Part shown: positions 1 through 64,000 of the stretch, piece by piece
Position numbering within the stretch: the first letter of the stretch is position 1
Layout: each line of letters begins with the position of its first letter
NCBI RefSeq assembly: GCF_040675855.1
Contig: NZ_JBEGIK010000001.1
Coordinates: forward strand, 1,116,001 to 1,180,000
DNA from: Microbacterium sp. LWH3-1.2
GTDB lineage: Bacteria; Actinomycetota; Actinomycetes; Actinomycetales; Microbacteriaceae
Length of the DNA stretch: 64,000 nt
Direction: 5' to 3'
The notes under the pieces: generated by a model
Told to the model about the DNA's origin: nothing
The model's input: only the letters and a program-made list of their open reading frames with translations
Database searches by the model: none
Made by a program: the position numbers and the translations under genes

Positions 1-1134
1 GTCGCCTGGGTGCTCATCGCCGGTGCGCTCACGCTGTGGATCGCGGGCCAGGCGCTCGGCTGGTGGGAGCTCACCGTGGCGGCGATCTCGATCACCGGCG
101 TGCTGGCGCTGTGCCTGCTGTTCCTCATCGGGCGCACCGCGTACGACGTGTCGCTCGACCTCAACCGCACGCGCGTCGTCGTGGGGGAGCGGGCCGTGGG
201 TGCGCTCACCCTCGCGAACACCGGCCTGCGCGCCATCCTGCCCTCGCGGGTGCTGCTGCCGGTCGGAAACGGCCGTGGCGTGTTCGACGTGAACCGGCTG
301 GCGGCCGGCGACTCGGCCGAGGAGCTCTTCGCCATCCCCACATCGAGGCGCGCGGTCGTCAAGGTCGGCCCGGTGAGCGTCGTGCGCGGCGATCCGCTCG
401 GCCTCTTCGAGCGTGTGCACCGCCGCGACGAGCCCGTCGACCTCTTCGTGCACCCGCGCACCGTCCTGTTCGACGGACAGTCGCTCGGGTTCCTGCGCGA
501 CCTCGAGGGGCTTCCGGCGACCGACCTGTCGCCCGACGACGTCTCGTTCCACGCGCTGCGCGAGTACCAGCCGGGCGACGACCTGCGTCACGTGCACTGG
601 AAGTCGACCGCGCGCACCGGACACATGATGGTGCGCCAGTACGAGGAGACGCGCCGCTCGCACTTCGTGATCGGCCTGTCGACGAGCCCCGCCGACTACC
701 GCGACGACGACGAGTTCGAACTCGCGATCTCGGCCGCGGGCTCCCTCGGCCTCCGCGCCCTGCGCGACTCGCAGCGGGTCGAGGTGCGGGTGCAGGAGCG
801 CGCTCTGCCGTCAGGCTCGGGCAAGCAGTTCCTCGACTCCCTGTCGGCGCTCGGCCACTCGAAGCCGAAGGCGGGCTCGGTCGTCGAGCTCGCCGGCGTC
901 GTCGCCGCGACGCTGCCCCTCGCGAGCGTGGTCGTGCTCGTGTGCGGCAGCAAGGTCGACCGGGGCGACCTGCGCACGGCCTGCAGCCGCCTGCCGTTCG
1001 GCGCGCGCGTGCTCGCGGTCGTCGCGTCGGCGGACCACGCCGCGCCGTCGCTTCGGAGGATCGGAGAAGCGGATGTCGTGACCCTCGGCGCGCTCGAACA
1101 GCTCCCGAACGCCCTCCGGAAGGTGCTCGCATGA
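1..1134 (+). CDS. DUF58 domain-containing protein (5' end outside window)
   Basis: The reading frame is open from the first base, so the gene probably begins upstream; the first possible start inside the window is a GTG at 10. Two hydrophobic segments at the visible N-terminus anchor it in the membrane. The DUF58 signature around residues 185-215 reads GDDLRHVHWKSTARTGHMMV, preceded by ALREYQPGDD. The domain is related to the von Willebrand A fold. DUF58 proteins usually sit next to a MoxR AAA ATPase and a transglutaminase-like membrane protein; here the next gene is the latter, and a moxR gene is expected just upstream. The stop overlaps the next start as ATGA at 1131-1134, indicating translational coupling. 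Confidence 0.9.
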   Translation, partial: VAWVLIAGALTLWIAGQALGWWELTVAAISITGVLALCLLFLIGRTAYDVSLDLNRTRVVVGERAVGALTLANTGLRAILPSRVLLPVGNGRGVFDVNRLAAGDSAEELFAIPTSRRAVVKVGPVSVVRGDPLGLFERVHRRDEPVDLFVHPRTVLFDGQSLGFLRDLEGLPATDLSPDDVSFHALREYQPGDDLRHVHWKSTARTGHMMVRQYEETRRSHFVIGLSTSPADYRDDDEFELAISAAGSLGLRALRDSQRVEVRVQERALPSGSGKQFLDSLSALGHSKPKAGSVVELAGVVAATLPLASVVVLVCGSKVDRGDLRTACSRLPFGARVLAVVASADHAAPSLRRIGEADVVTLGALEQLPNALRKVLA

Positions 1135-3689
1135 CCGCGCCGGTCACCCCGCTCCCGACGCGCGCCGGGGCTTCCGCGTCACCGCAGGCGGCAGCATCCG
1201 TCTCCCGTACTCCGCGTGCCGACGCCCTGCCGACCCGTCGCTGGATCCTCGACCTCGGCGCGGTCGCACTGCTGCTGCTCATCCCCCTCATCGGTTTCGC
1301 GCCCACGTTCGACGGCGCGAGCTACCTCGTCGCCGCGCTCGGCGGCCTCGTACTCGGCATGGGACTGGCCGTGCTCGGCCGGCTGTACCGCTGGGGCATC
1401 CTGCTCCTCACCGCCGCGACGACCGCCGTCTACTTCCTCCTCGGCGGGACCCTCGCCCTGCCGCACACCACCGTCGCGGGCGTGATCCCGACGCTCGAGA
1501 CGCTGCGTCAGCTCGCCCTCGGCGTCGTCATGTCGTGGAAGCAGCTCCTCACCACGATCGCCCCCGTCGCGACCGACGACGGCCATCTCATCGTCCCCCT
1601 CATCCTGTCGCTCGTCGCGGCGGTGCTGACGACATCCCTCGCGCTGCGCCTGCGCAGCGCCGGATGGGCGCTGATCCCGGCCGCGGGGTTCCTCGCGATC
1701 GAGATCGCGCTGGGCACCTCCGAGCCGTTCGTGCCCGTGATTCAGGGCGTCGTGTTCGGACTCGCCGGCGCGGTCTGGCTCGCCCTGCGCCAGGCATGGC
1801 AGCCGCAGGCCGCGGCGATCTCGGTCGGCGAGGGGCCGGCGAAGTCGGGTGCCGGCGTGCGCCGCGTGCTCACGGGCGGTGCCGTCGTCGCGATCGCCGC
1901 GGTCGTCGGCGTCGCCACGAGCGGGTTCGCGGCGCCGTCGTCGCCGCGCTACGTGCTGCGCGACGTCGTGATCCCACCGTTCGACATCCGTGAGTTCGCC
2001 AGCCCCCTGCAGTCGTTCCGCGCCTACGTGCGGGACCACCCCGACGACCCGCTCTTCACCGTCAGCGGCCTGCCCGAGGGCGCGCGCATGCGCCTGGCAA
2101 CGATGGATGCCTACAACGGCACGGTCTACAACGTGTCGGACGACGGCAGCGGCTCGTCGAGTGCCTTCGCCCCCGCGCGCACCAACATGTCGGCCGGCGC
2201 GGACGGCACGCCGGCGACGGTGCACGTCGAGATCGGCGAGCTCGAGAGCGTGTGGATGCCGGACGCCGGCGCCGTCCGAAGCGTCACGTTCGACGGCGCC
2301 CGTGCCGACGACCTGCGCCGCACCGCCCACTACAACGAGGCGACCGACACCGGCGTCGTCACCCTCGGCCTCGAGAAGGGCGACGAGTACACCCTCGACG
2401 CCGTGATCCCCGAAGTGCCGAGCGACGAGGCGCTCGCAGACCAGAACTTCGCGCCGCTGAAGATGCCGAAGCAGGTCGGCGTCCCCGAGTCTCTGGCCGA
2501 CATCGCGTCGAAGACGGTGGCCGAGGCCGAGACACCCGTCGAGCAGGTGCGAGCCCTGCAGCAGATGCTGTCGGAGGGCGGCTACTTCAGCCACGGGCTC
2601 GCCGGACAGCCGCTTTCGCGCGCCGGCCACGGCGCCGAGCGCATCGCGACGCTGCTCGGCTCGGAGCAGATGGTGGGTGACGACGAGCAGTACGCGACGG
2701 CAATGGCGCTGCTCGCGGCCCAGGTCGGCATCCCCGCGCGGGTCGTCATGGGGTTCTACCCTGACGAGGACCAGGCCGGCCAGCCCGTCTACACCGCGAC
2801 GGGCGACACGCTCCACGCGTGGGTGGAGGTCGCCTTCGACGACGCCGGGTGGGTCCCGTTCGACCCGACGCCGCCCGAGGACCAGGTTCCGAGCGACCAG
2901 ACGACGAAGCCCAAGGCCGACCCCAAGCCGCAGGTGCTGCAGCCCCCGCCCCCGCCGACGGAGCCCGTCGACCTGCCGCCGACCGTCGCCGACGACCGTG
3001 GCTCGGAAGACGAGAACGCCTTCGACGCGGGCCTGCTGTGGACGATCGTGTCGATCGGCGTCGGCGCGCTGGGTCTGCTCGCCGTGCTGCTGGCCCCGTT
3101 CATCGTCATCGGCGCCCTGAAGGCCGCGCGCCGCCGCAAGCGCCGCGAGGCCGAGCGCGCCTCCGACCGCATCAGCGGAGGATGGGACGAACTCGTCGAC
3201 CGCGCCTCGGACTTCGGCGCGCCCGTGCGCGCCGGCGCTACGCGCCAGGAGGACGCCGGCGTGCTCACGGCGGCGTTCTCCGAGCCGCGGGTCGCGACGC
3301 TCGCCTCGCGGGCCGACCTGGAGGTGTTCGGGCCGACCGAGCCGTCGCCCGACGACATCGAGGCCTTCTGGACGCAGGTCGACGAGATCGTCGGCGGCAT
3401 GGCGAAGGGACGCTCGGTGTGGCAGCGTCTGGGCGCGAGACTCAGCATCCGCACCCTCCTCGAGGGCACGCGGCTCGCGCTGCCGGCACGTCCGGCGCCG
3501 CCGGGGCGCCCGGCGTCCGCTGCGCACCCGGCGCCCGCAACAGACCCGGCGCGCGCGACAGAGCAGCCCGCCGCCACCCCGGCGCACGACCCCGACACGC
3601 CGAACAGCTCGACCCGGCGCTCGCGCCGTGGCAGCACGACCCGGAGCGCACCCGAGGCCTCCGCCCACCCCGCACAGGAGAACGAATGA
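1131..3689 (+). CDS. TgpA-like membrane protein with transglutaminase-fold domain
   Basis: 852 aa. Several hydrophobic helices lie between about residues 35 and 290, followed by an extracytoplasmic transglutaminase-like domain (about 460-585), a proline-rich stretch, one more membrane helix near 640 and a cytoplasmic tail. This matches the DUF3488/TgpA plus transglutaminase architecture. The catalytic His (H562 in TLHAWVEV) and Asp (D578 in FDPTPP) are visible. However, the segment that normally reads GxCEQFA here reads GDDEQYA, so D518 occupies the cysteine position. The domain is therefore probably not a working transamidase or protease and may bind peptides or glycans instead. It starts on the ATG that overlaps the DUF58 stop. 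Confidence 0.9.
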   Translation: MTAPVTPLPTRAGASASPQAAASVSRTPRADALPTRRWILDLGAVALLLLIPLIGFAPTFDGASYLVAALGGLVLGMGLAVLGRLYRWGILLLTAATTAVYFLLGGTLALPHTTVAGVIPTLETLRQLALGVVMSWKQLLTTIAPVATDDGHLIVPLILSLVAAVLTTSLALRLRSAGWALIPAAGFLAIEIALGTSEPFVPVIQGVVFGLAGAVWLALRQAWQPQAAAISVGEGPAKSGAGVRRVLTGGAVVAIAAVVGVATSGFAAPSSPRYVLRDVVIPPFDIREFASPLQSFRAYVRDHPDDPLFTVSGLPEGARMRLATMDAYNGTVYNVSDDGSGSSSAFAPARTNMSAGADGTPATVHVEIGELESVWMPDAGAVRSVTFDGARADDLRRTAHYNEATDTGVVTLGLEKGDEYTLDAVIPEVPSDEALADQNFAPLKMPKQVGVPESLADIASKTVAEAETPVEQVRALQQMLSEGGYFSHGLAGQPLSRAGHGAERIATLLGSEQMVGDDEQYATAMALLAAQVGIPARVVMGFYPDEDQAGQPVYTATGDTLHAWVEVAFDDAGWVPFDPTPPEDQVPSDQTTKPKADPKPQVLQPPPPPTEPVDLPPTVADDRGSEDENAFDAGLLWTIVSIGVGALGLLAVLLAPFIVIGALKAARRRKRREAERASDRISGGWDELVDRASDFGAPVRAGATRQEDAGVLTAAFSEPRVATLASRADLEVFGPTEPSPDDIEAFWTQVDEIVGGMAKGRSVWQRLGARLSIRTLLEGTRLALPARPAPPGRPASAAHPAPATDPARATEQPAATPAHDPDTPNSSTRRSRRGSTTRSAPEASAHPAQENE

Positions 3690-4942
3690 CCGTGAGCCCC
3701 CCTGGCGCCGCTCCTGCGGCGACCATCGGACGCCGAGTGGGGGCGTTCGCGATCGACATCGGCGTCGCCTGCGTGATCGGCGCGGTGCTGGTCGGCATCG
3801 TCCTGGGCATCATCTTCGGTGTGGGCCCCGCGTGGGGGCGCGACAGCCTGGCGGTCATGATGCTGCTCGGCTCCGTCGGGATCGGCTTGCTGCTGCTCGT
3901 CTGGTGGCTCCTCTACTCCGCCATGCAGGGCAGCCTCGGTGGCTCGATCGGGCAGCGGATCCTCGGCCTGCGCCTGCACGACGCCGCCTCCGGCGGTCCG
4001 ATCGGATTCTGGCGCGCGATCCTGCGCAACCTCGTGTTCAGCCTCGCCGCGTCGATCGTGGTCGGATGCTTCACGCCGCTCTTCGACGCGAGCGGCCGCC
4101 GGCAGGGCTGGCACGACATGGCCGCGCGTGCGGTCGTCGTAGACATCCGGAACACGGATGCTGCGCCCCCGGCGCCCCCGGCGCCCGCGGCGACCGCCAC
4201 GGCGAACCCGTACCTCCCGCCGCCGCCGAGCGCCGCACCACTGCCGCCGGCGCCATCGCCGCGGCCCGCGGCCCCGGTGCCCGCCGCGGGATTCATGCCC
4301 GAGGCAAACCGGGCCGCGACGCGTCCGGCCCTTCCCGTGCCGACCGGAGTGATCCACGACATCCCCTGGGGCGCGCACGAGCCGACGGTCGCGCATCCGC
4401 CGCAGTCGGAGTCCTTTCCCAGCGTCACCATGCCGTTCCCCGCGGCGACGACGACCGAGCCGCTCGGCGCGACCGCCCTCGCGACCGCGGCGCCGGCCGT
4501 GCCTGTCGCGAACGCTGCAGTCGCAGCATCCGTGATCCCCGCCGTCGAAGAAGAGGACGTCGAGTCCACGCGCATCGTCGTGCCGCCGCCGGCCCAGCGG
4601 GCCGCGCTGTACGACGGCGCGCCGGTGCTCGCGGTGCTCACGTGGGACGACGGGACGCGCATGGCCGTGTACGGCCGCACCCTGTACGGCCGCAACCCCG
4701 CGGGCGAAGACGGCGCGGTCGCGATCCCGGTGCGCGACGAGACGCTGTCGCTGTCGAAGACGCATTTCGAGGTCGGCGGCGGCGCCGTGGGGGCGTGGAT
4801 CGCCGACCGCCACTCGACCAACGGCACGACGCTGGTCCGCGACGGCGGGCGGATCCCGCTCACCCCTGGCGTCCGCACGAACCTGCGCGACGGCGACACG
4901 CTGGAGTTCGGAGACCGGCGAGTAATGGTGGGCCTGGCGTGA
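3686..4942 (+). CDS. RDD family membrane protein with C-terminal FHA domain
   Basis: 418 aa. Residues about 10-155 form an RDD domain with three hydrophobic helices and the typical RxxGxxxDxxxx and GxxxGxRxLGLR patterns (SIGQRILGLRL). A long Pro/Ala-rich linker follows (about 160-300). The C-terminus (about 320-418) is an FHA domain with the phosphothreonine-binding features GRxLYGRNP, LSKTHFEV and RHSTNGT. It is probably a membrane protein whose cytoplasmic FHA head reads threonine phosphorylation by the kinase encoded downstream. It starts at the ATG in the ATGA overlap with the previous gene; the next gene starts inside its stop codon. Confidence 0.88.
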   Translation: MTVSPPGAAPAATIGRRVGAFAIDIGVACVIGAVLVGIVLGIIFGVGPAWGRDSLAVMMLLGSVGIGLLLLVWWLLYSAMQGSLGGSIGQRILGLRLHDAASGGPIGFWRAILRNLVFSLAASIVVGCFTPLFDASGRRQGWHDMAARAVVVDIRNTDAAPPAPPAPAATATANPYLPPPPSAAPLPPAPSPRPAAPVPAAGFMPEANRAATRPALPVPTGVIHDIPWGAHEPTVAHPPQSESFPSVTMPFPAATTTEPLGATALATAAPAVPVANAAVAASVIPAVEEEDVESTRIVVPPPAQRAALYDGAPVLAVLTWDDGTRMAVYGRTLYGRNPAGEDGAVAIPVRDETLSLSKTHFEVGGGAVGAWIADRHSTNGTTLVRDGGRIPLTPGVRTNLRDGDTLEFGDRRVMVGLA

Positions 4943-5793: not shown

Positions 5794-7205
5794 TGCCCAC
5801 GCTGTACGCCCCGGGAACCACGCCGGCCGCCGTCACCCCGCGCGGATTCGCGGTGCTCGAGCCCGGCACCTCCGCCGCGCTGCTCACCCGCATCAGGTCG
5901 GTGCTCGCTGACGGCCGCGGCCTCGGCGGGGTGATCGAGGCGCTCACCGGAGCGTACGGCGCGTCGCTGACCGCGATCCCGGCGTTCGCGGTGGCGCTCG
6001 CCGAGGGTGACGGCGTGCGCGTCGCCGTCCGCGGTGACTTCGCTTTCGACATCGACGCGACGGCCGCCGAGCGCGTGTCGGGCGCCGGGGTCACGACCTG
6101 GACCGAGCGCGTGATCCCGGGCGTGGCGCGCGTGGCGCTCACGACGGCGGGCTCCGATGCCCCGGCCGAGTTCCCGATCGCCGACGGCATCGTGCTGGCG
6201 AGCAGGATCGACTGGGATGCTGCGCCCACCGGTGCCTCGACGGCTGCCGGCGACGCCTCCGCCGAGGTCGCGCCGGGTCCGCGCCGGCGCGAGGTCCCGG
6301 TGGCGCCCGCGGTGTCGGAGCCGCCATCCGCGCCTCCCGTCCTTGCCGAAACACGGGTCGATGATGGCGACACGCCGGAGACGGATGCCGCGGCCCGGCG
6401 TGTCGGGCAACCTGCCCGTGTCTCGGCGCCTGAGGCGGGGACGGAGCCGGCACCGGGGACGGCCGCCTCGGGGCTCATCGACTCGAACTCCGTGCCGTCG
6501 GTCGTCGACGCCGAGACCCTGCTTCCCCTCGACTCGGCCCTCGCCGCACCCGCCGCGACCGTCGTGCCGCTGCCTTCCACCGGCCCGGCGCCGACCGGTG
6601 AAGACGAGTCCGCCACGGGATTCGACGACCTGTGGGGCGCCACGGTGATCCGCTCCGTGGAGGACGCCGCCGTCCGCCCCGAGGGCGAGGACGAGCACCG
6701 CGCCCCGGCCGCGCCGCCCGCACCCGCCGGCGACCACGACGGTGCGACGATCTCGATCGCCCAGGCCCGCGCACTGCGCGAGGCGGCGGGCGGCGTCGGG
6801 GGCGCAGCATCCGTCTTCCCCATCGATTCGACCCCCGCGCCGCTCGCGCCGCCGCGCCCGCCGGCACCGGGTCGCATCCGCGTCTCGACCGGGCAGGTGC
6901 TGCCGCTCGACCGCACCGTCGTGATCGGCCGGCGCCCGCGCTCGACCCGCGTGAGCGGCACCGACCTGCCGCACCTGGTCGCCGTCGACAGCCCCCAGCA
7001 GGACATCTCGCGCAGCCACGTCGAGCTGCGGGTCGAGGGCGAGAGCATCGTCGCGACCGACCTGCGCACCACGAACGGCACGACCCTCCTCCGCCAGGGC
7101 GCCGAGCCGGTGCGACTGCACCCCGGCGAGGGCACGGTCGTGATCCCGGGCGACGTGCTGGATCTGGGCGACGGCATCACCGTCGCGATCGAGGGGCTGA
7201 CGTGA
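5793..7205 (+). CDS. FHA domain-containing protein
   Basis: 470 aa. The C-terminal 105 residues are an FHA domain, with the phosphopeptide-binding signatures VVIGRRPRS, DISRSHVELRV and DLRTTNGTTL. The N-terminal about 140 residues form a compact unassigned domain. The central region is a long low-complexity Pro/Ala/Asp/Glu linker containing several threonines that could be kinase targets. No membrane helix is visible, so it is probably a cytoplasmic phospho-dependent scaffold. It starts on an ATG sharing a base with the phosphatase stop and ends overlapping the kinase GTG start. Confidence 0.86.
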   Translation: MPTLYAPGTTPAAVTPRGFAVLEPGTSAALLTRIRSVLADGRGLGGVIEALTGAYGASLTAIPAFAVALAEGDGVRVAVRGDFAFDIDATAAERVSGAGVTTWTERVIPGVARVALTTAGSDAPAEFPIADGIVLASRIDWDAAPTGASTAAGDASAEVAPGPRRREVPVAPAVSEPPSAPPVLAETRVDDGDTPETDAAARRVGQPARVSAPEAGTEPAPGTAASGLIDSNSVPSVVDAETLLPLDSALAAPAATVVPLPSTGPAPTGEDESATGFDDLWGATVIRSVEDAAVRPEGEDEHRAPAAPPAPAGDHDGATISIAQARALREAAGGVGGAASVFPIDSTPAPLAPPRPPAPGRIRVSTGQVLPLDRTVVIGRRPRSTRVSGTDLPHLVAVDSPQQDISRSHVELRVEGESIVATDLRTTNGTTLLRQGAEPVRLHPGEGTVVIPGDVLDLGDGITVAIEGLT

Positions 7206-8833
7206 GCGGCAAGCGCGCGCCTATGGCGCCGCCGGACCTCCCCGGCTTCACCTATGTCGACCTGCTCGGTTCGGGCGGCTTCGCCGACGTCTACCTCTAC
7301 GAGCAGCAGCTGCCCAAGCGCCGCGTCGCGGTCAAGGTGCTGCTCACGGAGCGCATGTCGAGCGGCTCGGTCGAGGAGTTCACCGCCGAGGCGAACGTCA
7401 TGGCGATGCTGTCGACGCACCCGGCGATCGTCACGATCTACCAGGCGGGGGTTGCCAAGGACGGCCGCCCGTACCTCGTGATGGAGTACTGCCCGCGGCC
7501 GAACCTGCAGGTGCGGTATCGGCGCGAGCCCTTCTCGATCGCGGAGTCGCTGCGCGTCGGCGTGCAAGTCGCGGCGGCCGTCGAGACGGCGCACCGCGCG
7601 GGTGTCCTGCACCGCGACATCAAACCCGCGAACATCCTCGTCACCGAGTACAACCGCCCGGCGCTCACCGACTTCGGCATCGCGTCGACGACGAACGCGG
7701 CCGCCGAGTCGGCGGGCCTGTCGATCCCCTGGTCGCCGCCGGAGTCCTTCGCCGACGTGCCGCGCAGCGACCCGCGCTCCGACGTGTACGCGCTGGGCGC
7801 GACCGTGTACACGCTCCTCGCCGGACGCTCGCCGTTCGAGCTGCCCGGCCAGCGCAACGGTGCGGCCGAGCTCATCCACCGCATCGAGACGCTGCCGCTC
7901 CCCGCCCTCGCCCGCGCCGACCTGCCCCCGTCACTGCAGCGCGTGCTCGAGCGCGCGATGGCCAAGGCGCCCGTCGACCGGTACGAGAGCGCCCTGGCCT
8001 TCGCCCGCGCGCTGCAGACCGCCCAGATCGAGCTGTCGCACTCCGTCACCCCGATCGACATCCTCGACGATCACGCGCCGGAAGACGTCGAGGAGGACGA
8101 GGACGACGGCCTCACCCGCGTCCGCGGTGTCGTCAGCATCAACCCTGAGACGACGCCGGCGGCCGGCATGACCCGTCCGTCGGCCGCGACCGCGCCGAGC
8201 CGGGCCAACGCGCCGCGGTTCGATCCGGCCCCCGTCGAGACCGCGACGGTAGCCCGGCACGCGCCCATGACCCCGGCGTCGGCGTACGAGCAGACGGTCC
8301 GGCGCGACCAGGTCGGGCTGCCGGTGTCGCTCGACGAGACGATCGTCCGTGCACCCGCCTTCGACGCGGCCCCTCCACAGGAGGAGGTGGATGCTGCGCC
8401 CCCGCGTCGCCGTCGCACAGGACTGTGGATCGGGCTCGGTGCTGCCGCGCTCGTGATGGTCGCGGTCATCGTCGGGGTATCTCTGCCGGGCATCCTGTCG
8501 GGCGACGCGCAGGAGCAGCCGGCGCCGTCGGAATCGTCGAAGCCGCAGGACCCGCTCTCGACGGTCGTGCCGGCCGTGACGGACGTCGTCGGAGCACCCG
8601 CCGAGGGCGGTATGAAGTTCACCTGGAAGAACCCCGACCCGCAGGACGGCGACTTCTACATCGTCGAGACCGTGTCGCTGACCGACACCACCGGCGAGAC
8701 GGAGTCGGTCGACGAGCCCGAGATCGTGGTCGCGGCCGCCGCCACGGGGCAGACCTGCGTCGACGTCACGCTGGTCCGCGCGAACGGCACGCAGCAGCAG
8801 GATCCCGAGAAGACCCGGGGGTGCACACCGTGA
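7202..8833 (+). CDS. Transmembrane Ser/Thr protein kinase (PknB-like)
   Basis: 543 aa. The kinase domain spans about residues 13-285. It has a glycine loop (GSGGFADVY), catalytic lysine K45 in VAVKVLL, HRDIKPAN with D139, TDFG with D157, and an SPPE in place of the usual APE. A low-complexity juxtamembrane region follows (about 290-405), then one membrane helix (GLWIGLGAAALVMVAVIVGV) and an extracellular domain of about 110 residues. The ectodomain has a beta-sandwich, Fn3-like pattern and two cysteines, rather than PASTA repeats. The GTG start at 7202 overlaps the previous stop (GTGA). It pairs with the PP2C and FHA proteins of this operon. Confidence 0.95.
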   Translation: MSGKRAPMAPPDLPGFTYVDLLGSGGFADVYLYEQQLPKRRVAVKVLLTERMSSGSVEEFTAEANVMAMLSTHPAIVTIYQAGVAKDGRPYLVMEYCPRPNLQVRYRREPFSIAESLRVGVQVAAAVETAHRAGVLHRDIKPANILVTEYNRPALTDFGIASTTNAAAESAGLSIPWSPPESFADVPRSDPRSDVYALGATVYTLLAGRSPFELPGQRNGAAELIHRIETLPLPALARADLPPSLQRVLERAMAKAPVDRYESALAFARALQTAQIELSHSVTPIDILDDHAPEDVEEDEDDGLTRVRGVVSINPETTPAAGMTRPSAATAPSRANAPRFDPAPVETATVARHAPMTPASAYEQTVRRDQVGLPVSLDETIVRAPAFDAAPPQEEVDAAPPRRRRTGLWIGLGAAALVMVAVIVGVSLPGILSGDAQEQPAPSESSKPQDPLSTVVPAVTDVVGAPAEGGMKFTWKNPDPQDGDFYIVETVSLTDTTGETESVDEPEIVVAAAATGQTCVDVTLVRANGTQQQDPEKTRGCTP

Positions 8834-12017: not shown

Positions 12018-13043
12018 TCAGAGCACGCCGAGCGCACGCACCGCGTCGCGCTCCGCGGCGAGTTCGTCGACGGATGCGGCGACCCGCGCACGTGCGCGAT
12101 CGTCGAGGTCGAGTCCCTCGACGACCTCGTACCCGTCACGGCCGCCCTTCGAGCGGACGGGGAACGAGCACACCAGTCCCTCGGGGACGCCGTACTCGCC
12201 GCGCGACACGACCGCCGCCGACGTCCAGGTGCGGCGGGGCGTGCCGAGCTGCTCGTCGCGCACATGGTCGATCGCCGCGTTCGCCGCCGAGGCGACCGAC
12301 GACGAGCCGCGCACCTCGATGATCTCGGCCCCGCGCTTCGCCACGCGCGGGATGAAGACGTCGTCGAGCCATGCTCTCGCTGCGGCCTCGCCGCCGAGGC
12401 GCTCGGCCAGGGCGTCGAGCACGTATGTCGCATCCGGCAGGGTCGCATGCGAGACATCGGGGAACTGGGTCGCGGAGTGGTTGCCCCAGATCACGACGTC
12501 GGCGATGTCGCCCGCTGCGATCCCGAGCGCCCCCGCGAGCTGGCCGAGGGCGCGGTTGTGGTCGAGGCGCGTGAGGGCGGTGAAGCGCCCTGACGGGATG
12601 TCGGGCGAAGCGGATGCCGCAGCGATGAGCGCGTTCGTGTTCGCGGGGTTTCCCACCACGACGACGCGCACGTCGTCGTCGGCGACCGCGCCGATCGCCT
12701 TGCCCTGCGGCCCGAAGATCCCCGCGTTCGCAGCGAGCAGGTCGCCGCGCTCCATGCCCGCCGCTCGCGGCCGCGCGCCGACCAGCATCGCGATGCGGGT
12801 GCCGTTGAATGCGGTGAGAGGGTCGTCGGTGAGGTCCACGTCGGCGAGCAGCGGGAACGCGCAGTCCTGCAGCTCGAGCGCCGCACCCTCGGCCGCGCGC
12901 ATGCCCTGCGGGATCTCGAGCAGCCGCAGCCTGACCGGACGATCCGGGCCCAGCATGTCTCCCGCGGCGATGCGGAACATCAGGGCGTAGCCGATCTGGC
13001 CTCCGCCGCCGGTGATGGTCACGGTCGTGGGTTCGATCGCCAT
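12018..13043 (-). CDS. mdh: Malate dehydrogenase
   Basis: 341 aa, cytoplasmic TCA-cycle enzyme interconverting malate and oxaloacetate with NAD(H). The Rossmann glycine motif is [16 protein letters not shown], with a glycine where GAAGQIGY is usual. Other signatures are [43 protein letters not shown] (substrate arginine region) and [15 protein letters not shown] with the catalytic histidine. The length is slightly above the family norm of about 329. The ATG start is 7 bases after TAGGCT, and the gene is divergent from the metallopeptidase gene. Confidence 0.95.
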
Positions 13044-14007: not shown

Positions 14008-15239
14008 ACGAACACCTCGACGACATCCTCTATCCGCCCATCGAGCCCTACGACACCGGCACGCTCATCGCCGGCGAGGGCAACCGCATCGCGTACGAGC
14101 AGAGCGGAAACCCCGAGGGAAAGCCGGTGGTGTTCCTCCACGGCGGACCGGGCGCCGCAACGTCGCCCTGGCACCGCCGCTTCTTCGACCCCGAGCGGTA
14201 CCGCATCATCCTGCTCGACCAGCGCGGCTGCGGACGCTCCACCCCGCACGCGAGCGAGCCCGATGCCGACCTGCGCCACAACACCACATGGCACCTCGTC
14301 GCCGACATCGAACTCCTGCGCAAGAACCTCGGCATCGAGAGATGGCAGGTCTTCGGCGGCTCGTGGGGGAGTGCGCTCGCCCTCGCCTACGCCGAGTCCC
14401 ACCCGCAGGCCGTCACCGAGATCGTGCTCCGCGGCATCTTCACGCTGCGCCGCCACGAGCTGGAGTGGTTCTACGAGGGGGGCGCAGCATCCATCGTCCC
14501 GGATCTGTGGGAGGACTTCATCGCCCCCATCCCGATCCTCGAGCGCTCGCAGCTCATGGAGGCGTACCACCGCCGGCTCTCCGACCCCGATCCGGACGTG
14601 CACGTGCCGGCCGCCGTCGCCTGGTCGCGCTGGGAAGCCGCGAACCTCACGCTGCTGCCCGATCCCGCGCTCATCGAGGCGATGACCGAGCCGCGCGCGG
14701 CCGTCGCGTTCGCCCGCATCGAGAACCACTACTTCCTGCACGGCGGCTGGTTCGAGCCCGAGCAGCTGATCGCGAACGTGGGTCGGATCCGCGACATCCC
14801 GGCCGTCATCGTGCAAGGCCGCTACGACGTCTGCACCCCCGCCATGACCGCGTGGGACCTGCATCGCGCCTGGCCGGAGGCGGACTTCGTCATGATCACG
14901 GATGCTGCGCACGCGGCGTCCGAGCCGGGCATCGCGTCCGCGCTGCGCGCTGCGACCGACCGCTTCGCGGAGGCCCCCGTCCAGGACTCCGCCGACGCCG
15001 AGGCGACCGGCGAGCCAGAAGCGACCGAGGAACCCGGGGCCGGCGAGGAGCACGAGGAATCCGACGCGGAGGCCGAACCGGAGCCCGAGGAGGAGTCCGG
15101 CGCGGAGGCGTCCGACAAGACCGGAGCCGACTCCGAGGGTGCGACCGACCCCGAGGACCTGTCGTCCACCGAGCCCGAACTCCGCGGAGAGCGCGTCCGC
15201 AAGCGGTCGAAGAAGAGTAAGGACACCGCCGGTCTCTGA
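14004..15239 (+). CDS. pip: Proline iminopeptidase with acidic C-terminal extension
   Basis: 411 aa. The alpha/beta-hydrolase core (about residues 1-315) matches prolyl aminopeptidases: HGGPGAATSPWHRRFFDPERY, LLDQRGCGRSTPHA, and the nucleophile elbow VFGGSWGSALALAYA with the catalytic serine. It releases N-terminal proline from peptides. The family normally ends near 315 residues; here about 95 extra residues rich in Glu, Asp and Ala follow, ending in a basic RKRSKKSK patch. The extension is in frame, low in complexity and probably disordered. The gene is translationally coupled to the metallopeptidase, so both may act in peptide turnover. Confidence 0.92.
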   Translation: MNEHLDDILYPPIEPYDTGTLIAGEGNRIAYEQSGNPEGKPVVFLHGGPGAATSPWHRRFFDPERYRIILLDQRGCGRSTPHASEPDADLRHNTTWHLVADIELLRKNLGIERWQVFGGSWGSALALAYAESHPQAVTEIVLRGIFTLRRHELEWFYEGGAASIVPDLWEDFIAPIPILERSQLMEAYHRRLSDPDPDVHVPAAVAWSRWEAANLTLLPDPALIEAMTEPRAAVAFARIENHYFLHGGWFEPEQLIANVGRIRDIPAVIVQGRYDVCTPAMTAWDLHRAWPEADFVMITDAAHAASEPGIASALRAATDRFAEAPVQDSADAEATGEPEATEEPGAGEEHEESDAEAEPEPEEESGAEASDKTGADSEGATDPEDLSSTEPELRGERVRKRSKKSKDTAGL

Positions 15240-15531: not shown

Positions 15532-17103
15532 ATGACCGAAACCTCGTTCGGCGCGCTCGGCGTGCCGCAGCCCCTTGTCGACGCGCTCGCCGCGGGCGGC
15601 AAGACCACCGCGTTCCCGATCCAGGTCGACACGCTCCCCGACACGCTCGCCGGCCGCGACGTGCTGGGCCGTGGCAAGACCGGCTCGGGCAAGACCCTCG
15701 CCTTCTCGATCCCGATGGCCGCGCGCCTCGGCGGCAAGCTCGCCGGCGGAAACCGCCGCAAGGGCCGTCCGCTCGGCCTCGTGCTCGCGCCGACGCGCGA
15801 GCTCGCAACCCAGATCGATGCGACCCTCGCCCCCCTCGCGAAGGCCTACGGCCTCACCACCACGACGATCTTCGGTGGCGTGAACCAGAATCGTCAGGTG
15901 AACGCGCTCAACGCCGGCGTCGACATCGTCGTGGCGTGCCCGGGCCGCCTCGAGGACCTCATGAAGCAGGGCTTCGTGCACCTCGACGCGGTGGAGATCA
16001 CCGTCATCGACGAGGCCGACCACATGGCCGACCTCGGCTTCCTGCCGGGTGTCACGCGCATCCTGAACGCGACGCCGTCCGGCGGCCAGCGCCTGCTGTT
16101 CAGCGCGACCCTCGACAACGGGGTCGACAAGCTCGTGGGCCGCTTCCTGCAGAACGAGGTGCTGCACTCCGTCGACGAGGCGCACTCACCCGTCGCCGCG
16201 ATGACGCACCACGTCTTCACCCTCGCCGACGCCGACGCCAAGAAGGATGTCGTCAAGGCTCTCGCGTCGGGAGCAGGTCGCCGCATCCTGTTCATGCGCA
16301 CCAAGCACCAGGCCAAGAAGCTCGCGAAGCAGCTGACCGGCCAGGGCATCCCTGCCGTCGATCTGCACGGCAACCTGTCGCAGGCCGCCCGCGACCGCAA
16401 CCTCGCGGCGTTCTCGTCGGGTTCCGTCAAGGTGCTCGTGGCGACGGATGTCGCGGCCCGCGGCGTGCACGTCGACGACGTCGAGCTCGTCATCCACGTC
16501 GACCCGCCGATGGAGCACAAGGCGTACCTGCACCGCTCGGGCCGCACCGCTCGCGCGGGCGCGGAGGGTGCCGTGGTGACGCTCGTGCTGCCCGAGCAGA
16601 AGCGCGACGTGTCGCAGCTGCTGCGCAAGGCCGCCATCTCGGTCGAGCCGGTCGCCGTCACCGCGACCTCGCCCGAGGTCGTCGCGCTCGTCGGCCAGGT
16701 CGCCCCGTACGTGAAGCCCGTCCCGGTCGCCGAGACCCCGCGCGGCACCAGCCAGGGTGCGAACGCGCAGCGCAAGCGCGCCGCGCGCGAGGCGCGCGAG
16801 ACGGATGCCGCCACCGCCGGCCGCTCCGGGGGCGGCCGTCGCCGTCGCGGTTCCGGCCAGGGTGATTCGGCCCAGGGCACCGGCCGTCAGCAGGCCGCGG
16901 GCGGTCAGCGCCGCGACGCCGCCGCCGCGCACGACAAGGCCTCGCACCAGCGCCACGACCAGAGTGCCGGCCACTCGCGTTCGGCCCAGGCCGCCGGCAA
17001 CCCCCGCACCCCGGGCCGGCGCGCCTCGTCCGGCGGCAGCGGCAAGCTCATGGTGGGCTCGGTCGTCCGCCCCAACGGCACCAACCGCCGCGGCGGCCGC
17101 TGA
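15532..17103 (+). CDS. DEAD-box RNA helicase
   Basis: 523 aa. The Q-motif/N-terminus (FGALGVPQPLVDAL...TAFPIQ) is followed by Walker A (GKTGSGKT), PTRELA, DEAD in VIDEADHMADLGF, SAT in LLFSATLDN, and the helicase-C motifs ATDVAARGVHVDDV and HRSGRTARAG. The last 120 residues are basic and rich in Gly, Arg and Gln, a typical RNA-binding tail. Likely roles are ribosome assembly or RNA decay, especially in the cold. The start is the ATG behind GGAG; a long untranslated leader precedes it. Confidence 0.95.
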   Translation: MTETSFGALGVPQPLVDALAAGGKTTAFPIQVDTLPDTLAGRDVLGRGKTGSGKTLAFSIPMAARLGGKLAGGNRRKGRPLGLVLAPTRELATQIDATLAPLAKAYGLTTTTIFGGVNQNRQVNALNAGVDIVVACPGRLEDLMKQGFVHLDAVEITVIDEADHMADLGFLPGVTRILNATPSGGQRLLFSATLDNGVDKLVGRFLQNEVLHSVDEAHSPVAAMTHHVFTLADADAKKDVVKALASGAGRRILFMRTKHQAKKLAKQLTGQGIPAVDLHGNLSQAARDRNLAAFSSGSVKVLVATDVAARGVHVDDVELVIHVDPPMEHKAYLHRSGRTARAGAEGAVVTLVLPEQKRDVSQLLRKAAISVEPVAVTATSPEVVALVGQVAPYVKPVPVAETPRGTSQGANAQRKRAAREARETDAATAGRSGGGRRRRGSGQGDSAQGTGRQQAAGGQRRDAAAAHDKASHQRHDQSAGHSRSAQAAGNPRTPGRRASSGGSGKLMVGSVVRPNGTNRRGGR

Positions 17104-17249: not shown

Positions 17250-17316
17250 GACGGGCGAGCAGGACGGATGCTGCGGAGCCGGAGCCGCGGGCGGCGGGGG
17301 CCGACCTCGAGAAGGG

Positions 17317-24076: not shown

Positions 24077-24167
24077 ATTCGGACGGATGCCGCGGCGTCA
24101 GGGTGTCGCGATGGTCCGAATGGTTTTCAACTCGCGAGCCCGCTCGACGAGCGCGAAGCCGGGGGCC

Positions 24168-25725: not shown

Positions 25726-25782
25726 ACCAACGGATGCCTCGGCCCGCGGCATTCGTTCTCCACAGGCCTCTCGGCATGTCAC

Positions 25783-26253: not shown

Positions 26254-26364
26254 GATTCCCCCATGTGAATCCCTCGGTGTCCCACACACCGGGTCTGTTG
26301 GCGGCACCTTACAGCAGTCCCGACCGCTCGGACAGAGGGGCGTCGTCGCAACTCGATCGCCGAC
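26254..26364 (-). promoter_or_regulatory. Intergenic region upstream of the cytidylyltransferase gene
   Basis: On the - strand TAAGGT (26311-26306) is a possible -10 box about 50 bases before the start, and CGGTGT-CCCAC-ACACCG can form a small hairpin in the leader. No clear -35 is visible. Confidence 0.35.
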
Positions 26365-29364: not shown

Positions 29365-29373
29365 GCCAGGGGC

Positions 29374-29937: not shown

Positions 29938-29946
29938 GATGAATCG

Positions 29947-34957: not shown

Positions 34958-35038
34958 CGGTTATGATCCACTCGAGCGCGCCTCGCCGACCGCCGATTGC
35001 CGTCGCGCTCGATCAACACGGGGTCGAGGGAGGGCCGG

Positions 35039-37377: not shown

Positions 37378-37387
37378 TCTCGATCGG

Positions 37388-38104: not shown

Positions 38105-38334
38105 GTCCCCCCATGCCTCCGCACCTCGTGGTGCGAGTGTTGGAATCCACCCTGGCGTCTGGCGCCCTGTCGTGTAAACTCCGCGTCAAGCGTACTGGCA
38201 AGTTGCACCCGACGACGATGATGCCGAAGCGCAGCGACAGCACGTGTGCCCGCGGACGGGGAGCCTGTGGGCGACCGGTGATCCACGGGGGAAGTGCGAC
38301 GACCGGTCTCGAATATCTGGGAACGGGGTTTCAC
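38105..38334. promoter_or_regulatory. Divergent control region before the first giant surface protein gene
   Basis: 230 bases. CGCACC-TCGT-GGTGCG (38120-38135) is a perfect hairpin in the leader of the phosphotransferase. TAAACT (38175-38180) is a plausible + strand -10 box, leaving a leader of about 150 bases before the GTG at 38335. Confidence 0.4.
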
Positions 38335-47100: not shown

Positions 47101-50100
47101 GCCCTCGGGGTGCAGGATGTCGCCCCGCCGAGCGTGCCGTCCGGCCTCGCCGCGACGCACGGCTCCGGTGGGGTGGACGTCTCGTGGACGGCGTCGACCG
47201 ACAACACCCGCGTGCTCGAGTACCGGGTCTTCCGGGGTACGACGGTCGATTTCGCCGCTGACGCGGACTCGTTCCTCGCGACCACCGCCACGACCTCGTA
47301 CCACGAGGGATCGCCCGCACTCGGCACGTACTACTACCGGGTGACCGCGGTCGACGGGGCAGACAACGAGAGCGCACCCTCGTCTGCCAGGCAGCTCGAT
47401 GTGACCGACATCGATGCGCCGACCGCGCCCGCCAGCGCGGCCGCGACGCAGACCGGGGCGGACGGCGTGAGCGTCACGTGGGCGCCCTCGGCCGACAACG
47501 TCGATGTGACGGAGTATGCGGTCTACCGAGGCACCACCTCGGGCTTCGCCATCGTCGACGGAACGCTCGTGGGGACGGTCGCCGGCACGTCGTTCAGCGA
47601 GAGCGGACTCTCGGCCGGAGCGAAGTACTACCGCGTCGTGGCACGAGACGCGGCCGGCAACGCCAGTGGGCCCTCCAACACCGCAGCGGTGACCATCGTC
47701 CCACCGGATGTGACCGCCCCGAGCACGCCGGGCAACCTCACGGCGACGCTGTCCAGCGGAACCGATGTGACGCTGTCGTGGGATGCCTCGACCGACGATC
47801 GCGGCGTCACCTCCTACGTCCTGTACCGGAGCCTGAGCGCAGGCTTCACACCGGGTGCGGGCAACCGCATCGCGGAAGTCACGACGCCGGGTCATGTCGA
47901 CACCGGTCGCGCCGCCGGCACGTGGTACTACAAGGTGACGGCGCAGGATGCCGCGGGCAACATCAGCGCCGCAGCATCCGCATCGGTGACCGTCGAGCCG
48001 CCGTCGCAGGCGGTCGAGGTCACGCTGACGCCCACTGAGGATGCGATGGTGGCGCAGTCCGCGCCCACCACGCTGTACGGCTCGTCCAACCAGCTGTCGG
48101 CGCGTGGCACGAGCGGCACGATCGAGTCGTTCATCCGGCTGGAGCTGCCGGCGGCACCCGCGGGGACCGTGCTGACGAGCGCGGTGCTGTCGGTCCGCAC
48201 GTCGAACGACAGCACCGCCGCCACGACGGACTCGCCTCAGTTCCGGCTCGTCACGGGCGCGTGGAGCGAGGACGCCGTCAATTGGAACAACCGCCCGACC
48301 ACGACCGCGAGCGGCGTGCTCGGCACACTCAACGGCGCGACGGCCCTCAACACGCCGTACACCGTTGCTCTGGGCGCGGACGGACTGTCCTCGTTCCTCG
48401 GGCAGACGGTGACCCTGCGCATGTCGGGAACCAACAGCGACAACGTGCGAGTGTGGTCCGCGGAGGCGTCGTCGGCCTCCTACCGCCCATCCCTGCGGCT
48501 GACGTTCACGCCCGTCTCCGGTCCTGACACGCAGGCGCCGACCGTGCCGACCGGGCTCGCGACCTCGGTCGCCAACAATGCGGACGTGACCGTGACCTGG
48601 TCGCCTTCGACGGACAATGTGGGCGTCACCGGCTACAGCGTCCATCGAGGGACGACGGCGGGCTTCACCGCCGACGCCGCCTCGAAGATCGCCGACGTGA
48701 CGGCGCCGACATACAGGGACAACGGGCGCCCACAGGGGATCTGGTACTACAAAGTGACGGCCAGGGACGCCGAGAACAACGTGAGCGCCGCCTCTGCAAG
48801 CACCTACGCGACCATCCTCGCGAACGGCGGCACGCCGGTCGAGATCACCGTGCCGATCACCGACGACGCGATGGTCGCGCAGTCCTCTCCCGCGACGCTC
48901 TACGGTACGTCGAACCAGTTGTCGTCCCGCGGGACCGGCGGAACGATCGAGTCGTTCCTCGCTGTTCCGCTGCCGGCAGCGCCCGCCGGCACCGCGCTGA
49001 CCGGCGCGGTCCTCTCGGTGCGCACGTCGACAGACACCACCGCCGCGTCCGCGGACGCCCATGACTTCCGACTGATGTCCGGAGCCTGGACCGAGGCCGC
49101 GGTGAACTGGAACAACCGCCCGCAGACGACGGTCTCCGGCGTGCTCGGCAGTCTGACGGGTGCAGCGGCGCTCAACACGCCGTACACCGTCGCGCTGAGC
49201 CCCGAGCCGTTCGCGTCGGCCCTGGGGCAGACGGTCACGCTGCGGATGTCGAGCGCGGGCGGCGACAACGTCCGGCTGTGGTCCGCGGAAGCGACGTCGT
49301 CGACGTACCGGCCGTCCGTCAAGCTCACGTTCACCCCCGTGGCCGGCCCCGACACGGAGCCGCCGTCGGTGCCGACGGATCTCTCGGCATCCGTCGTCAA
49401 CAATGCCGACGTCAACCTCACGTGGTCCGCATCCACCGACAACACCGGAGTGACCGGGTACACGGTCTATCGCGGCGCCGCGGGGGACTTCACCGCGGAC
49501 GCATCGTCCCGGCTCGCCGACGTCACCACGACGTCCTATGCCGACAACGGGCGGCCGACGGGCACGTGGCATTACAAGGTGACCGCTCGGGATGCTGCGG
49601 GCAATGTCAGCGCGGCATCGACCGCGGCCACGGCAACCATCACACCGCCGGCGGTGCCGCCCGTCGTGCAGACGGTGGCCACCACCGCCGACACGATGGT
49701 GGCCGCCAGCAACGCTGCCGGGCTGTACGGCACGACCAACCAGCTGTCGTCGCGGTTCAACACGGCGATCGAGTCGTTCATGTCGTTCGCACTGCCGGCG
49801 GCGCCGGCCGGCATGCAGCTGACGGCCGTCTCGCTCGCGGTACGCACGTCGACAGACGCCACTGCCGCATCTGCCGACACCCATGTCTTCCACCTGATGT
49901 CGGGCACGTGGGACGAGTCGACGATGACGTGGAACAACAGGATCACGCAGACGGCGTCCGGTGCCATCGGCCAGCTGTCCGGTGCCGCCGCTGTCAACAC
50001 CGCCTACACGGCGACCCTCAGCGCGGCGGACCTCGCCGGGCGGGCGGGTCAGACGGTGACGGTGCGCATGTCGAGCGTGGCCGGGACGGACAACGTCCGG

Positions 50101-54962: not shown

Positions 54963-55095
54963 ACGAATCCCCTGATCCGGACCGCGCATCCCCACGTGCG
55001 ATCTCTGAGGGGATGCTACCCGGATGCCGCCGCCCGCCGCCCGACCGCGACGCGGGTTGTGCATGATGCGCGTCGCCTCGCGCCGGAGGTGTCGC

Positions 55096-56614: not shown

Positions 56615-57376
56615 GTGGCAGCTAAGACTGAAAGCCTTTCACCGGGTCCGGTCTCGAGGTCGAATCACGTCATCGACCAGGTCAAGCGGATGATCGCCTC
56701 CGGCGAACTGCGGGCCGGCGACCGGCTCCCGATCGAGAAGGAACTCGCTGCACAGCTCGGGGTGTCGCGAGGCTCCCTGCGGGAGGCGGTGAGATCGCTC
56801 GCCACCCTCGGAGTGCTCGAGACGCGTCAGGGCGACGGCACGTACGTGACCCAGCTCGACCCCGGTTCGCTGCTGCGCCCCCTGGAATTCTGGGCTGGAC
56901 TGCAGGAGGCGACTCAGTCGGTCGATCTGCTCGCCGTACGACGCGTGCTCGAGACGGAGTCCGCCGGGCTCGCGGCAGTGAGGCTGACGGACGCCGAATT
57001 CGACGACCTCGAGAAGATCCTGTCCGACATCGACTCCGAGTTGGCCTCGGGCAACCTCGAGCCCGAGGCGTTCATCGACGCGGACGCCGCCTTCCATCGG
57101 CACATCGCCGTCGCCAGCGGCAACCCCGCGCTCGCCGCGTTGATCGACAGTCTGATGACACGCACACTTCGCGGCCGCCTCTGGCGCGCCATCACGGAAC
57201 GCGATTCGCTCGGCGAGGCGCATGCCGACCACCGGGCCATCCTCGCCGCGCTCCGCACCCGCGACGCCGAACGAGCGCGCATCCGGATGGCGGCGCACCT
57301 GCTGGGTGTCGAAGTCTTCGCGGCGCAGCATCCGGTCGAGGGCGGCGATCAGCCGCCAGGGTCGTCTAGCGGCTGA
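56615..57376 (+). CDS. FadR-subfamily GntR transcriptional regulator
   Basis: 253 aa. The N-terminal winged helix (about residues 18-85) has RLPIEKELAAQLGVSRGSLREAVRSL and the wing RQGDGTYV. The C-terminal FCD domain (about 100-235) is all-helical, with the metal/ligand histidine regions FIDADAAFHRHIA and EAHADHRAILAAL. It probably represses the adjacent fuconate dehydratase and fucosidase genes until a sugar acid accumulates. A GTG at 56615 follows a TACACT box. Its stop overlaps the 3' end of the convergent dehydratase by 11 bases. Confidence 0.92.
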   Translation: MAAKTESLSPGPVSRSNHVIDQVKRMIASGELRAGDRLPIEKELAAQLGVSRGSLREAVRSLATLGVLETRQGDGTYVTQLDPGSLLRPLEFWAGLQEATQSVDLLAVRRVLETESAGLAAVRLTDAEFDDLEKILSDIDSELASGNLEPEAFIDADAAFHRHIAVASGNPALAALIDSLMTRTLRGRLWRAITERDSLGEAHADHRAILAALRTRDAERARIRMAAHLLGVEVFAAQHPVEGGDQPPGSSSG

Positions 57377-61406: not shown

Positions 61407-62288
61407 TCACAGTCGTACCTCGCCTCGGCCGAAGGCCTGCAGCTTGGCGAACATGTCCTCGATGAGCCAACGGGTGTCGACGGCCTCGCACACGCGGATG
61501 CGGTGTGAGGTGTCGACGGTGCCGGCCACCTCGCTGTCGGCCCCGAATCGCGGCGGCGGGCGCAGGCTCCAGCGGGCGCCGAGCGGATTCAGCAGAGCGC
61601 CGATGGCCGGGCTGTCGCCGAGCGAGCGGAAGTCCATCGGCCCGTAGTCGATCCGGGCGTTGAAGGCGATCACGCGCTCGACGAGGTACTCCGCGAGCGC
61701 ACCGCTGCCGCCGAGGCGCTCGACGAGTTCCGCGTGCCCGACCCCGATCATCGTGTAGACGGACATCGGAATCTGCCACATCTCGACTCCGGATGCCAGC
61801 ACGACGTTGGCAGCCGCCACGTCGTTCGACAGGTTGAACTCGGGCGAGTATCCGACGACCCCCTCGTACGGAGGGCCGCCGATCCACACGATCAGCGGGT
61901 CGTCGTCGACGATGCCCGGGTCCTCCAGCAGTGCTGACGCGACATCGGTGAGTGGACCCAGCACGGCCACGCGAAGGCGCCGGTCGTCGGATCGCGCCTC
62001 TTGCCGGATCAGAGCCGAAGCCGCCGACGGGCGCGGCGTCTTCTCGTCCGCCAGCGCCCCATCCGCGCCGTCGGCAACGACGCCGCGCCCGGATGCTCCC
62101 AGCATGGACTGCAGGAGTTCGACCTCGGCGCGCGATTCGCCGCGGCTGCCCTGTCGTCCGAAATGGGCGGGGAGGATCCCCCGTACATCGAGGACGGACG
62201 AGAGCAGAGCATGCACGATGGCGAACTGGTCGTCGACCTCGTTCGCGGCATCCGTGCTGATGAGCACCTTGTGCGGCGGGAGCGGCAT
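61407..62288 (-). CDS. Nucleoside-hydrolase-like protein
   Basis: 293 aa. The N-terminal calcium site of inosine-uridine nucleoside hydrolases appears as STDAANEVDDQFAI (D13, D19, D20) rather than the usual DTDPGxDD. GPLTDVA, WIGGPP and EFNLSNDVAAANVV are further family landmarks. The altered motif places it in a divergent branch whose substrates are uncertain; near fucosidase and sugar-uptake genes it may hydrolyse an unusual glycoside. It follows the LacI gene with a 2-base gap. Confidence 0.82.
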   Translation of the reverse strand: MPLPPHKVLISTDAANEVDDQFAIVHALLSSVLDVRGILPAHFGRQGSRGESRAEVELLQSMLGASGRGVVADGADGALADEKTPRPSAASALIRQEARSDDRRLRVAVLGPLTDVASALLEDPGIVDDDPLIVWIGGPPYEGVVGYSPEFNLSNDVAAANVVLASGVEMWQIPMSVYTMIGVGHAELVERLGGSGALAEYLVERVIAFNARIDYGPMDFRSLGDSPAIGALLNPLGARWSLRPPPRFGADSEVAGTVDTSHRIRVCEAVDTRWLIEDMFAKLQAFGRGEVRL

Positions 62289-63558: not shown

Positions 63559-64000
63559 GTGAATCGTCGCAAACTGGCCCTGCCCATCGCCGCCCTCGGC
63601 GCTCTCGCGCTGCTGGTCTCCGGATGCTCGGGAGGGTCCGGCTCCGGCTCCGAAGCCGGGGACCCGAACGCCGAATTCGAGTTCTGGTCGTTCACCGGGA
63701 TCGGCCAGAAGGACTCGGTCGACCGGTACCTCGAAAAGAACCCCGACGCGAAGGTCAAGCTTTCGGAGGTCGGCAGCACCACCGAGACGGCGACCGCGCT
63801 GACGGCGGCCCTGGCCGGCGGCCGCGTGCCCGACCTGGTCATGATCCAGAACGACGACCTGCCAAAGTTCGTCGAGAACCCCGGCAACTTCATCGATCTG
63901 CGCACGCTCGGCGGCGACGACATCGGCGACGGGTACCTGGACTGGGCCATCGACGGAGCCACCGCCGAGGACGGATCCATCATCGGCATCCCCACCGACG
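63559..64000 (+). CDS. Sugar ABC transporter solute-binding lipoprotein (3' end outside window)
   Basis: The first 147 codons are visible. The lipoprotein signal NRRKLALPIAALGALALLVSGC has the lipobox LVSGC, then a Gly/Ser linker and the family-1 extracellular binding-protein fold start FEFWSFTGIGQKDSVDRY, with ALTAALAGGRVPDLVMIQND. GAGGAG precedes the GTG start. Permease genes are expected to follow outside the window. It is controlled by the LacI operator and probably imports a fucose-containing or related sugar; that substrate is inference from context. Confidence 0.92.
   Translation, partial: MNRRKLALPIAALGALALLVSGCSGGSGSGSEAGDPNAEFEFWSFTGIGQKDSVDRYLEKNPDAKVKLSEVGSTTETATALTAALAGGRVPDLVMIQNDDLPKFVENPGNFIDLRTLGGDDIGDGYLDWAIDGATAEDGSIIGIPTD

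Follow-up and report, generated by a model that had tools for sequence, protein, structure and literature searches.

GGATGCYGC, an abundant DNA motif of Microbacteriaceae that resembles a DNA-uptake sequence

A short word repeated throughout the genome

Why does one short word recur so often, on both strands, in a 64,000-nt stretch of DNA (the window; C1:1116001-1180000)? An earlier note on these letters had counted 15 forward and 14 reverse copies of GGATGCYGC, where about 3 would be expected by chance. The over-representation and the chance expectation (~2.6 copies predicted from base composition alone, by arithmetic) both stood, but the count was too low: an exact search located 33 copies, 17 on the forward strand and 16 on the reverse (Table 1). 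Many of them read (A/G)CGGATGCYGCG, and the motif, as read from the sequence, is non-palindromic. The genome-wide count that the note had proposed as a check, together with a count of one-base variants, agreed with its claim. Across the whole genome (3.94 Mb), GGATGCYGC occurs 2,374 times (1,164 + 1,210), compared with 165 times (80 + 85) for the reversed pattern (its letters in backward order), which served as a crude control.

Our sample of this genome combined the window with 40 stretches of 20 kb each and came to 864 kb (22%). In an unprompted word count of the first 464 kb of the sample, the motif and its extensions ranked among the top words of 8 to 12 bases. The 12-mer ACGGATGCTGCG occurred 48 times in these 464 kb, as against 0.4 times under a third-order model, and its single-base variants at the GGATGC positions had only 0-1 copies each. 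At position 9, T was replaced by C (38 copies) and less often by G (6). The ends were looser, with G (16) or C (6) at position 1, T (4) at position 2 and C (12) at position 12.

We conclude that GGATGCYGC, with the extended consensus (G)ACGGATGCYGCG, is probably a DNA-uptake-sequence-like self-recognition signal of Microbacteriaceae; preferential uptake and a receptor are what we infer from its pattern. We favour this reading because the motif uses both strands equally, has a sharp core, forms pairs behind genes, is replaced in some relatives by dialects with a common core and is not enriched in phages.

Table 1. Copies of GGATGCYGC in the window and the region poor in them
Feature	Position	Strand	Basis
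Motif copy	1191..1199	-	exact search
Motif copy	4156..4164	+	exact search
Motif copy	4523..4531	-	exact search
Motif copy	6215..6223	+	exact search
Motif copy	6383..6391	+	exact search
Motif copy	6804..6812	-	exact search
Motif copy	8389..8397	+	exact search
Motif copy	12612..12620	+	exact search
Motif copy	14484..14492	-	exact search
Motif copy	14900..14908	+	exact search
Motif copy	16803..16811	+	exact search
Motif copy, outside called genes	17266..17274	+	exact search
Motif copy	17474..17482	-	exact search
Motif copy	18614..18622	-	exact search
Motif copy	19575..19583	+	exact search
Motif copy	19885..19893	-	exact search
Motif copy	22097..22105	+	exact search
Motif copy	22691..22699	-	exact search
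Motif copy	23604..23612	-	exact search
Motif copy, outside called genes	24085..24093	+	exact search
Motif copy	24733..24741	-	exact search
Motif copy within supposedly empty 24742-40944	24861..24869	-	exact search
Motif copy within supposedly empty 24742-40944	32189..32197	+	exact search
Motif copy	40945..40953	-	exact search
Motif copy	43310..43318	+	exact search
Motif copy	45703..45711	-	exact search
Motif copy	45747..45755	+	exact search
Motif copy, first of intragenic head-to-head pair	47946..47954	+	exact search
Motif copy, second of intragenic head-to-head pair	47971..47979	-	exact search
Motif copy	49590..49598	+	exact search
Motif copy, outside called genes	55022..55030	+	exact search
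Motif copy	57325..57333	-	exact search
Motif copy	62245..62253	-	exact search
Motif-poor polysaccharide locus (2 copies vs 9.8 expected)	24742..40944		search + domains

Selection on the DNA itself

The 864-kb sample held 544 copies of the motif; by the calls of a simple custom gene caller, 413 lay within genes, 125 were intergenic and 6 crossed a gene edge, corresponding to densities of 0.55 per kb (genic) and 1.06 per kb (intergenic). When synonymous codons were shuffled within each gene, the 413 genic copies fell to 66 ± 7 (50 shuffles, maximum 84), and the 12-mer fell from 102 copies in genes to 3.0. Such codon shuffles cover seven genomes in all. The 125 intergenic copies compare with 10.6 predicted by a third-order Markov model. 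As the earlier note had claimed, the motif forces rarer codons: GAT makes up 16% of Asp codons, yet it is present at 239 of 454 D-A-A sites, and the motif itself accounts for 177 of these 454 sites.

An amino-acid motif was rejected as the cause of this excess, because the codon shuffles keep the proteins, and D-A-A and A-A-S stand at 1.15 and 1.20 times expectation. Chance combined with codon usage was likewise rejected, on the word counts against the Markov model and on the synonymous-codon shuffles.

The codon-preserving null, the differing motifs of relatives and the lack of enrichment in phages support the view, also put forward in the note, that selection acts on the DNA of the motif itself.

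Balanced strands and head-to-head pairs

The sampled copies are balanced between strands (277 of 544 forward), and those in genes run both along the gene (219) and against it (194). The note had named uptake, segregation and recombination as possible roles, and had proposed looking for strand skew around the origin and terminus. Chi and KOPS are short words, abundant through selection, that follow the direction of replication. GGATGCYGC resembles such recombination or chromosome-segregation signals in being short, very abundant and under selection, but it lacks replication polarity. At the best placement of origin and terminus, the leading-minus-lagging difference was 42 for the 544 sites, compared with a shuffle mean of 48.7, and 67 of 100 shuffles were as high; at no tested placement did strand bias exceed that of the shuffles. 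Because segregation and Chi-type signals both predict polarity, a polar signal of this kind is very unlikely, and uptake fits best of the three roles.

Neighbouring copies are often closely spaced. Of 504 gaps between neighbours, 23 were shorter than 15 bp (5.3 expected), and all 23 joined copies lying head to head. There were 31 head-to-head pairs within 30 bp, 11 in genes and 20 intergenic. Measured from the pair midpoint, 19 of the 20 intergenic pairs sit 15-87 bp past the 3′ end of a gene, a position shared by 33 of 86 single intergenic copies and by 21% of random intergenic positions. Such an arrangement of a pair behind a gene is the one seen in uptake sequences that also serve as terminators, as paired DUS do in Neisseriaceae.

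The position of these pairs just past the gene end, along with an intergenic density twice that in genes, would also suit a binding site for a nucleoid-associated, terminator or other DNA- or RNA-binding factor, with the hairpin pairs serving as terminators. However, most copies (413 of 544) lie in genes and in both orientations, only 62 of the 544 belong to the 31 tight pairs, and such a factor predicts neither the lack of the motif in phages nor a change of word between close species. We therefore consider a binding site of this sort quite unlikely.

One of the pairs in genes lies in the window, in a 1,987-residue reading frame (44212-50172) with CBM96, Laminin-G and fn3 domains, which holds five copies of the motif in total.

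DNA that is poor in the motif

The note had described the stretch 24742-40944 as free of copies and had suggested that it was acquired separately. Copies are in fact present at 24861 and 32189, and the count is low all the same (2 compared with 9.8 expected, P 0.003, for a region chosen after the fact). This stretch is a polysaccharide (EPS) locus, with glycosyltransferases, a hexapeptide-repeat transferase, a ParA-like ATPase and a GH71/CBM96 protein, and its GC content is 68.4% versus 70.6%. Three of 80 overlapping sampled stretches of equal length, from 2 of 40 loci, were equally poor, so the separate acquisition of the locus by transfer is only suggestive.

More generally, copies become fewer as GC content falls: there were none in three 5-kb bins below 64% GC, 0.7 per bin at 64-67% and 4.9 per bin at 73% or above. 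Depletion in foreign-looking DNA does occur, as in a 20-kb stretch of accessory metabolic and transport genes (L032, 66% GC) with no copies. Eight Microbacterium phages (311 kb), five of which belong to one genus and whose main host is M. foliorum, had 20 copies against 17 of the reversed pattern, in a comparison confined to the phage sequences; two Curtobacterium phages had 2 copies against 1. The 465-kb Microbacterium plasmid NZ_CP072877.1 was enriched rather than depleted, with 196 copies against 40 reversed. The tag is thus present in the named genus Microbacterium and extends beyond chromosomes. The first 96 kb of this plasmid contain few forward copies and the remainder is richer in them, as if the replicon were mosaic.

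Distribution across the family and order

The motif is enriched in many genera of Microbacteriaceae and not comparably in other families of the order. In its own genus, which is probably Microbacterium, 40 of 42 genomes had at least three times as many copies as of the reversed pattern, the exceptions being G032 and G220. Across the family, 49 of 85 genera reached at least threefold and 15 of 85 stayed below 1.5-fold, in a tally that takes the first listed member of each genus from 398 genomes and from which other members can differ. In the genus coded g33, for example, the first member had 294 copies against 256 reversed and another member 804 against 247.

Counts of motif and reversed pattern in named genomes were 1,200 and 129 in Cryobacterium glucosi, 671 and 181 in Cryobacterium adonitolivorans, 662 and 232 in Leifsonia virtsii, 231 and 140 in Labedella phragmitis, 158 and 95 in a Microcella genome, 157 and 167 in Curtobacterium oceanosedimentum, and 164 and 218 in Frigoribacterium sp. 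ACAM 257. Two Cellulomonas genomes had 191 and 188, and 242 and 249, and Nocardioides psychrotolerans had 233 and 545.

Among 111 genomes of other families in the order, the highest count was 444 (in 8.3 Mb, with 478 reversed), and only three exceeded threefold, each with fewer than 200 copies. One genome of another family, G039, had 11 copies in genes compared with 5.8 after shuffling (maximum 10 in 20 shuffles), and word counts gave no dialect-like word there.

Dialects in relatives

Unprompted word counts in genomes without GGATGCYGC turned up other abundant words: AGGAGGCGCGG in G166 (genus code g57, Frigoribacterium), GGCGCAGGAKCCG in G144 (g26), CGGATGGCC in G032, which belongs to the genus of the window, and CGGCCTGGAGGCGCGG in G162 (g53). 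All the dialect words that we found have GGAK in common. In genes, AGGAGGCGCGG occurred 30 times in G166 (2.4 after codon shuffling), GCGCAGGAKCC 30 times in G144 (1.8) and CGGATGGCC 48 times in G032 (11.3). Each of the genomes G000, G032, G166 and G144 was enriched for its own word, and the other words tested were near the level of the shuffles. Over whole genomes, CGGATGGCC occurred 1,052 times in G032 compared with 44-150 times in each of its 41 congeners.

In whole-genome counts, GGAGGCGCGG outnumbered its reversed form by 936 to 106 in G166, 673 to 118 in G162, 842 to 116 in Frigoribacterium sp. ACAM 257 and 317 to 57 in Curtobacterium oceanosedimentum. Across 71 family genomes with 64 genus codes, its enrichment was clear only in g57 and g53, and weak in g77 (399 versus 142). 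Word counts over about 100 kb each gave no clear dialect in g36, g38, g55, g72 or G220 (own genus); in 100 kb each, g36, g38, g55, g67 and g72 had neither GGATGCYGC nor a similar dialect. Mild word excesses only were seen in g73 and G091.

These dialects bear on whether the motif could be a word like HIP1, kept by a DNA methyltransferase, by a repair bias or by some genome function unrelated to uptake. Cyanobacterial genomes likewise contain HIP1 as a very abundant word, whose internal sequences are recognised by orphan methyltransferases (PMC4390886, excerpt). HIP1 is a palindrome tied to these enzymes, whereas GGATGCYGC is non-palindromic, is conserved over 9-12 bases, with few single-base variants, and occurs as head-to-head pairs past the ends of genes. 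In addition, a switch of word inside one genus would require a matching change of enzyme. On balance, a HIP1-like element is unlikely. No rival explains both the dialects and the lack of polarity as simply as an uptake sequence does.

Turnover of copies

The region around comEC contains 9 copies of the motif in G000 (20 kb), 17 in G010 (19 kb), 11 in G028 (19 kb) and 1 in G026 (19 kb); in G032 it contains 1 copy, along with 17 of CGGATGGC. Among the 15 copies of G010 that could be aligned, 3 are shared with G000 and 12 are absent from it, and for 8 of these 12 the aligned stretch shown is ungapped against G000. Conversely, of the G000 copies that could be aligned, 3 of 5 recur in G010 and 2 of 4 in G028, and G000 has none of the six CGGATGGC sites of G032 that could be aligned with it. 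From these small numbers, substitution seems to be the main way in which copies are gained and lost.

A dispersed repeat of the REP or MITE type would spread through insertion, and longer dispersed repeats do exist in the relatives G102 and G162. In G162, 10 of 13 sampled CGGCCTGGAGGCGCGG copies lie between genes and conservation extends over more than a 12-mer, so that this element may itself be a repeat element. The motif in its own genome, on the other hand, is little conserved beyond ~12-13 bases, and its copies in genes seem to change mostly by substitution within aligned sequence. A mobile repeat was rejected on these grounds; the observations already contradict it, and we regard it as extremely improbable.

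Competence genes and a proposed mechanism

The genome of the window has comEA and comEC next to a DNA polymerase III delta-like gene and leuS; both com genes score above the Pfam cut-offs and below the stricter NCBIfam cut-offs. It also has PilB and two tad clusters with TadA-type ATPases, T2SSF proteins and a DUF4244 protein that is Flp-like in appearance. One of its TadE-type minor pilins is above the Pfam cut-off and two are just under it; one falls in the Rv3655c subfamily and one is just under the Rv3654c cut-off.

The presence of this machinery does not track the motif, since ComEC was found in all 38 family genomes checked, among them genomes without the motif, and T2SSE ATPases in all 55 examined; having these genes therefore fails to prove the link. 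Another ComEC tally stood at 56 of 58, missing G030 (77% complete) and G044. ComEC was rejected as a correlate of the motif because of its presence in motif-less genomes, and the type IVa pilus because the pattern of PilB does not match that of the motif: no PilB-strength match was found in the motif-rich genomes G010, G198, G336 and G427, and such matches do occur in genomes that are poor in the motif or carry a dialect, among them G061, G090, G107 and G166. PilB-strength type IV pilus ATPases are patchy both among and inside the genera of Microbacteriaceae.

If the motif is an uptake sequence, a receptor for DNA at the cell surface, possibly one of the TadE-type minor pilins in a Tad/Flp competence pilus, would prefer tagged DNA, which would enter through ComEA and ComEC and then recombine. 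Tagged alleles would spread and copies would accumulate by molecular drive, and a change in the receptor would shift the dialect and reduce gene flow between species.

Transformation of the competent actinobacterium Micrococcus luteus depends on tad genes located in two clusters (PMC4322843, excerpt). A Microbacterium population of activated sludge gained a synthetic plasmid that had been supplied as extracellular DNA, as detected by Hi-C (PMC10257627, excerpt). The available excerpt of PMC5177630 contains no report of transformation for Microbacteriaceae. If the sludge plasmid was untagged, the tag is no absolute requirement. Together with the control on hairpin pairs, the sludge report slightly strengthens the case for uptake.

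Comparison with known uptake sequences

The hosts of USS, Pasteurellaceae, are AT-rich diderms, unlike Microbacteriaceae. Their USS resembles GGATGCYGC in having an abundant 9-mer core with dialects, two in number (PMC12616744, excerpt); its receptor is a predicted one. The DUS of Neisseriaceae is also alike, as a 10-12-mer in thousands of copies whose eight dialects share a trinucleotide core (CTG there, GGA here), and both families have members without any tag (PMC3630211, excerpt). It differs in that the host here is a high-GC monoderm family and the sequence is unrelated. The receptor is ComP in Neisseriaceae and perhaps a TadE-type minor pilin here, the uptake bias here is one that we infer, and the pili are type IVa there and likely Tad here.

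Our full-text literature search, which took in few subscription papers and no bioRxiv preprints, found no uptake sequence in Actinobacteria; within that scope, the excerpts retrieved described uptake sequences for Neisseriaceae and Pasteurellaceae only. The claim of an uptake tag would be new, because a 2025 paper describes uptake in monoderms as lacking sequence specificity (PMC12153270, excerpt). We propose, tentatively, that this could be the first sequence-specific DNA uptake of a monoderm phylum, with a Tad minor pilin independent of ComP and with receptor shifts that turn dialects into barriers to exchange.

If true, this would be a third, independent origin of uptake tags, in a large soil- and plant-associated family, and would point to widespread natural transformation in Microbacteriaceae, for which we found one community-level report (PMC10257627, excerpt). 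The dialects would then be natural replicates of how a tag originates, spreads and switches, and could guide genetics in the family.

Other repeated words

Several repeats of other kinds were seen. In the genome of the window, 14 copies of GTTCGGGGCGCA lie at ~14421-15104 of stretch L012 (C1 ~554421-555104), many of them at a spacing of 20 bp or its multiples, forming a tandem array. The genus coded g67 (G102, L123-L127) contains a dispersed repeat of greater length, with arms of GGCGTATCGAGACCC and CATGCTGGTCGAGTAGCC, which is a different kind of repeat. In G177 (g73, L143-L147), AAAGCAGGGTGTTT is repeated and GCGGATCG is in mild excess (38 versus 9.6), the latter possibly a weak dialect with a GGAT core. 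Finally, the palindrome CGGATCCG is in mild excess in two genomes from which the tag is absent, G220 (L153-L157; 59 versus 29) and G091 (g56, L098-L107; 204 versus 92), where it is perhaps a remnant.
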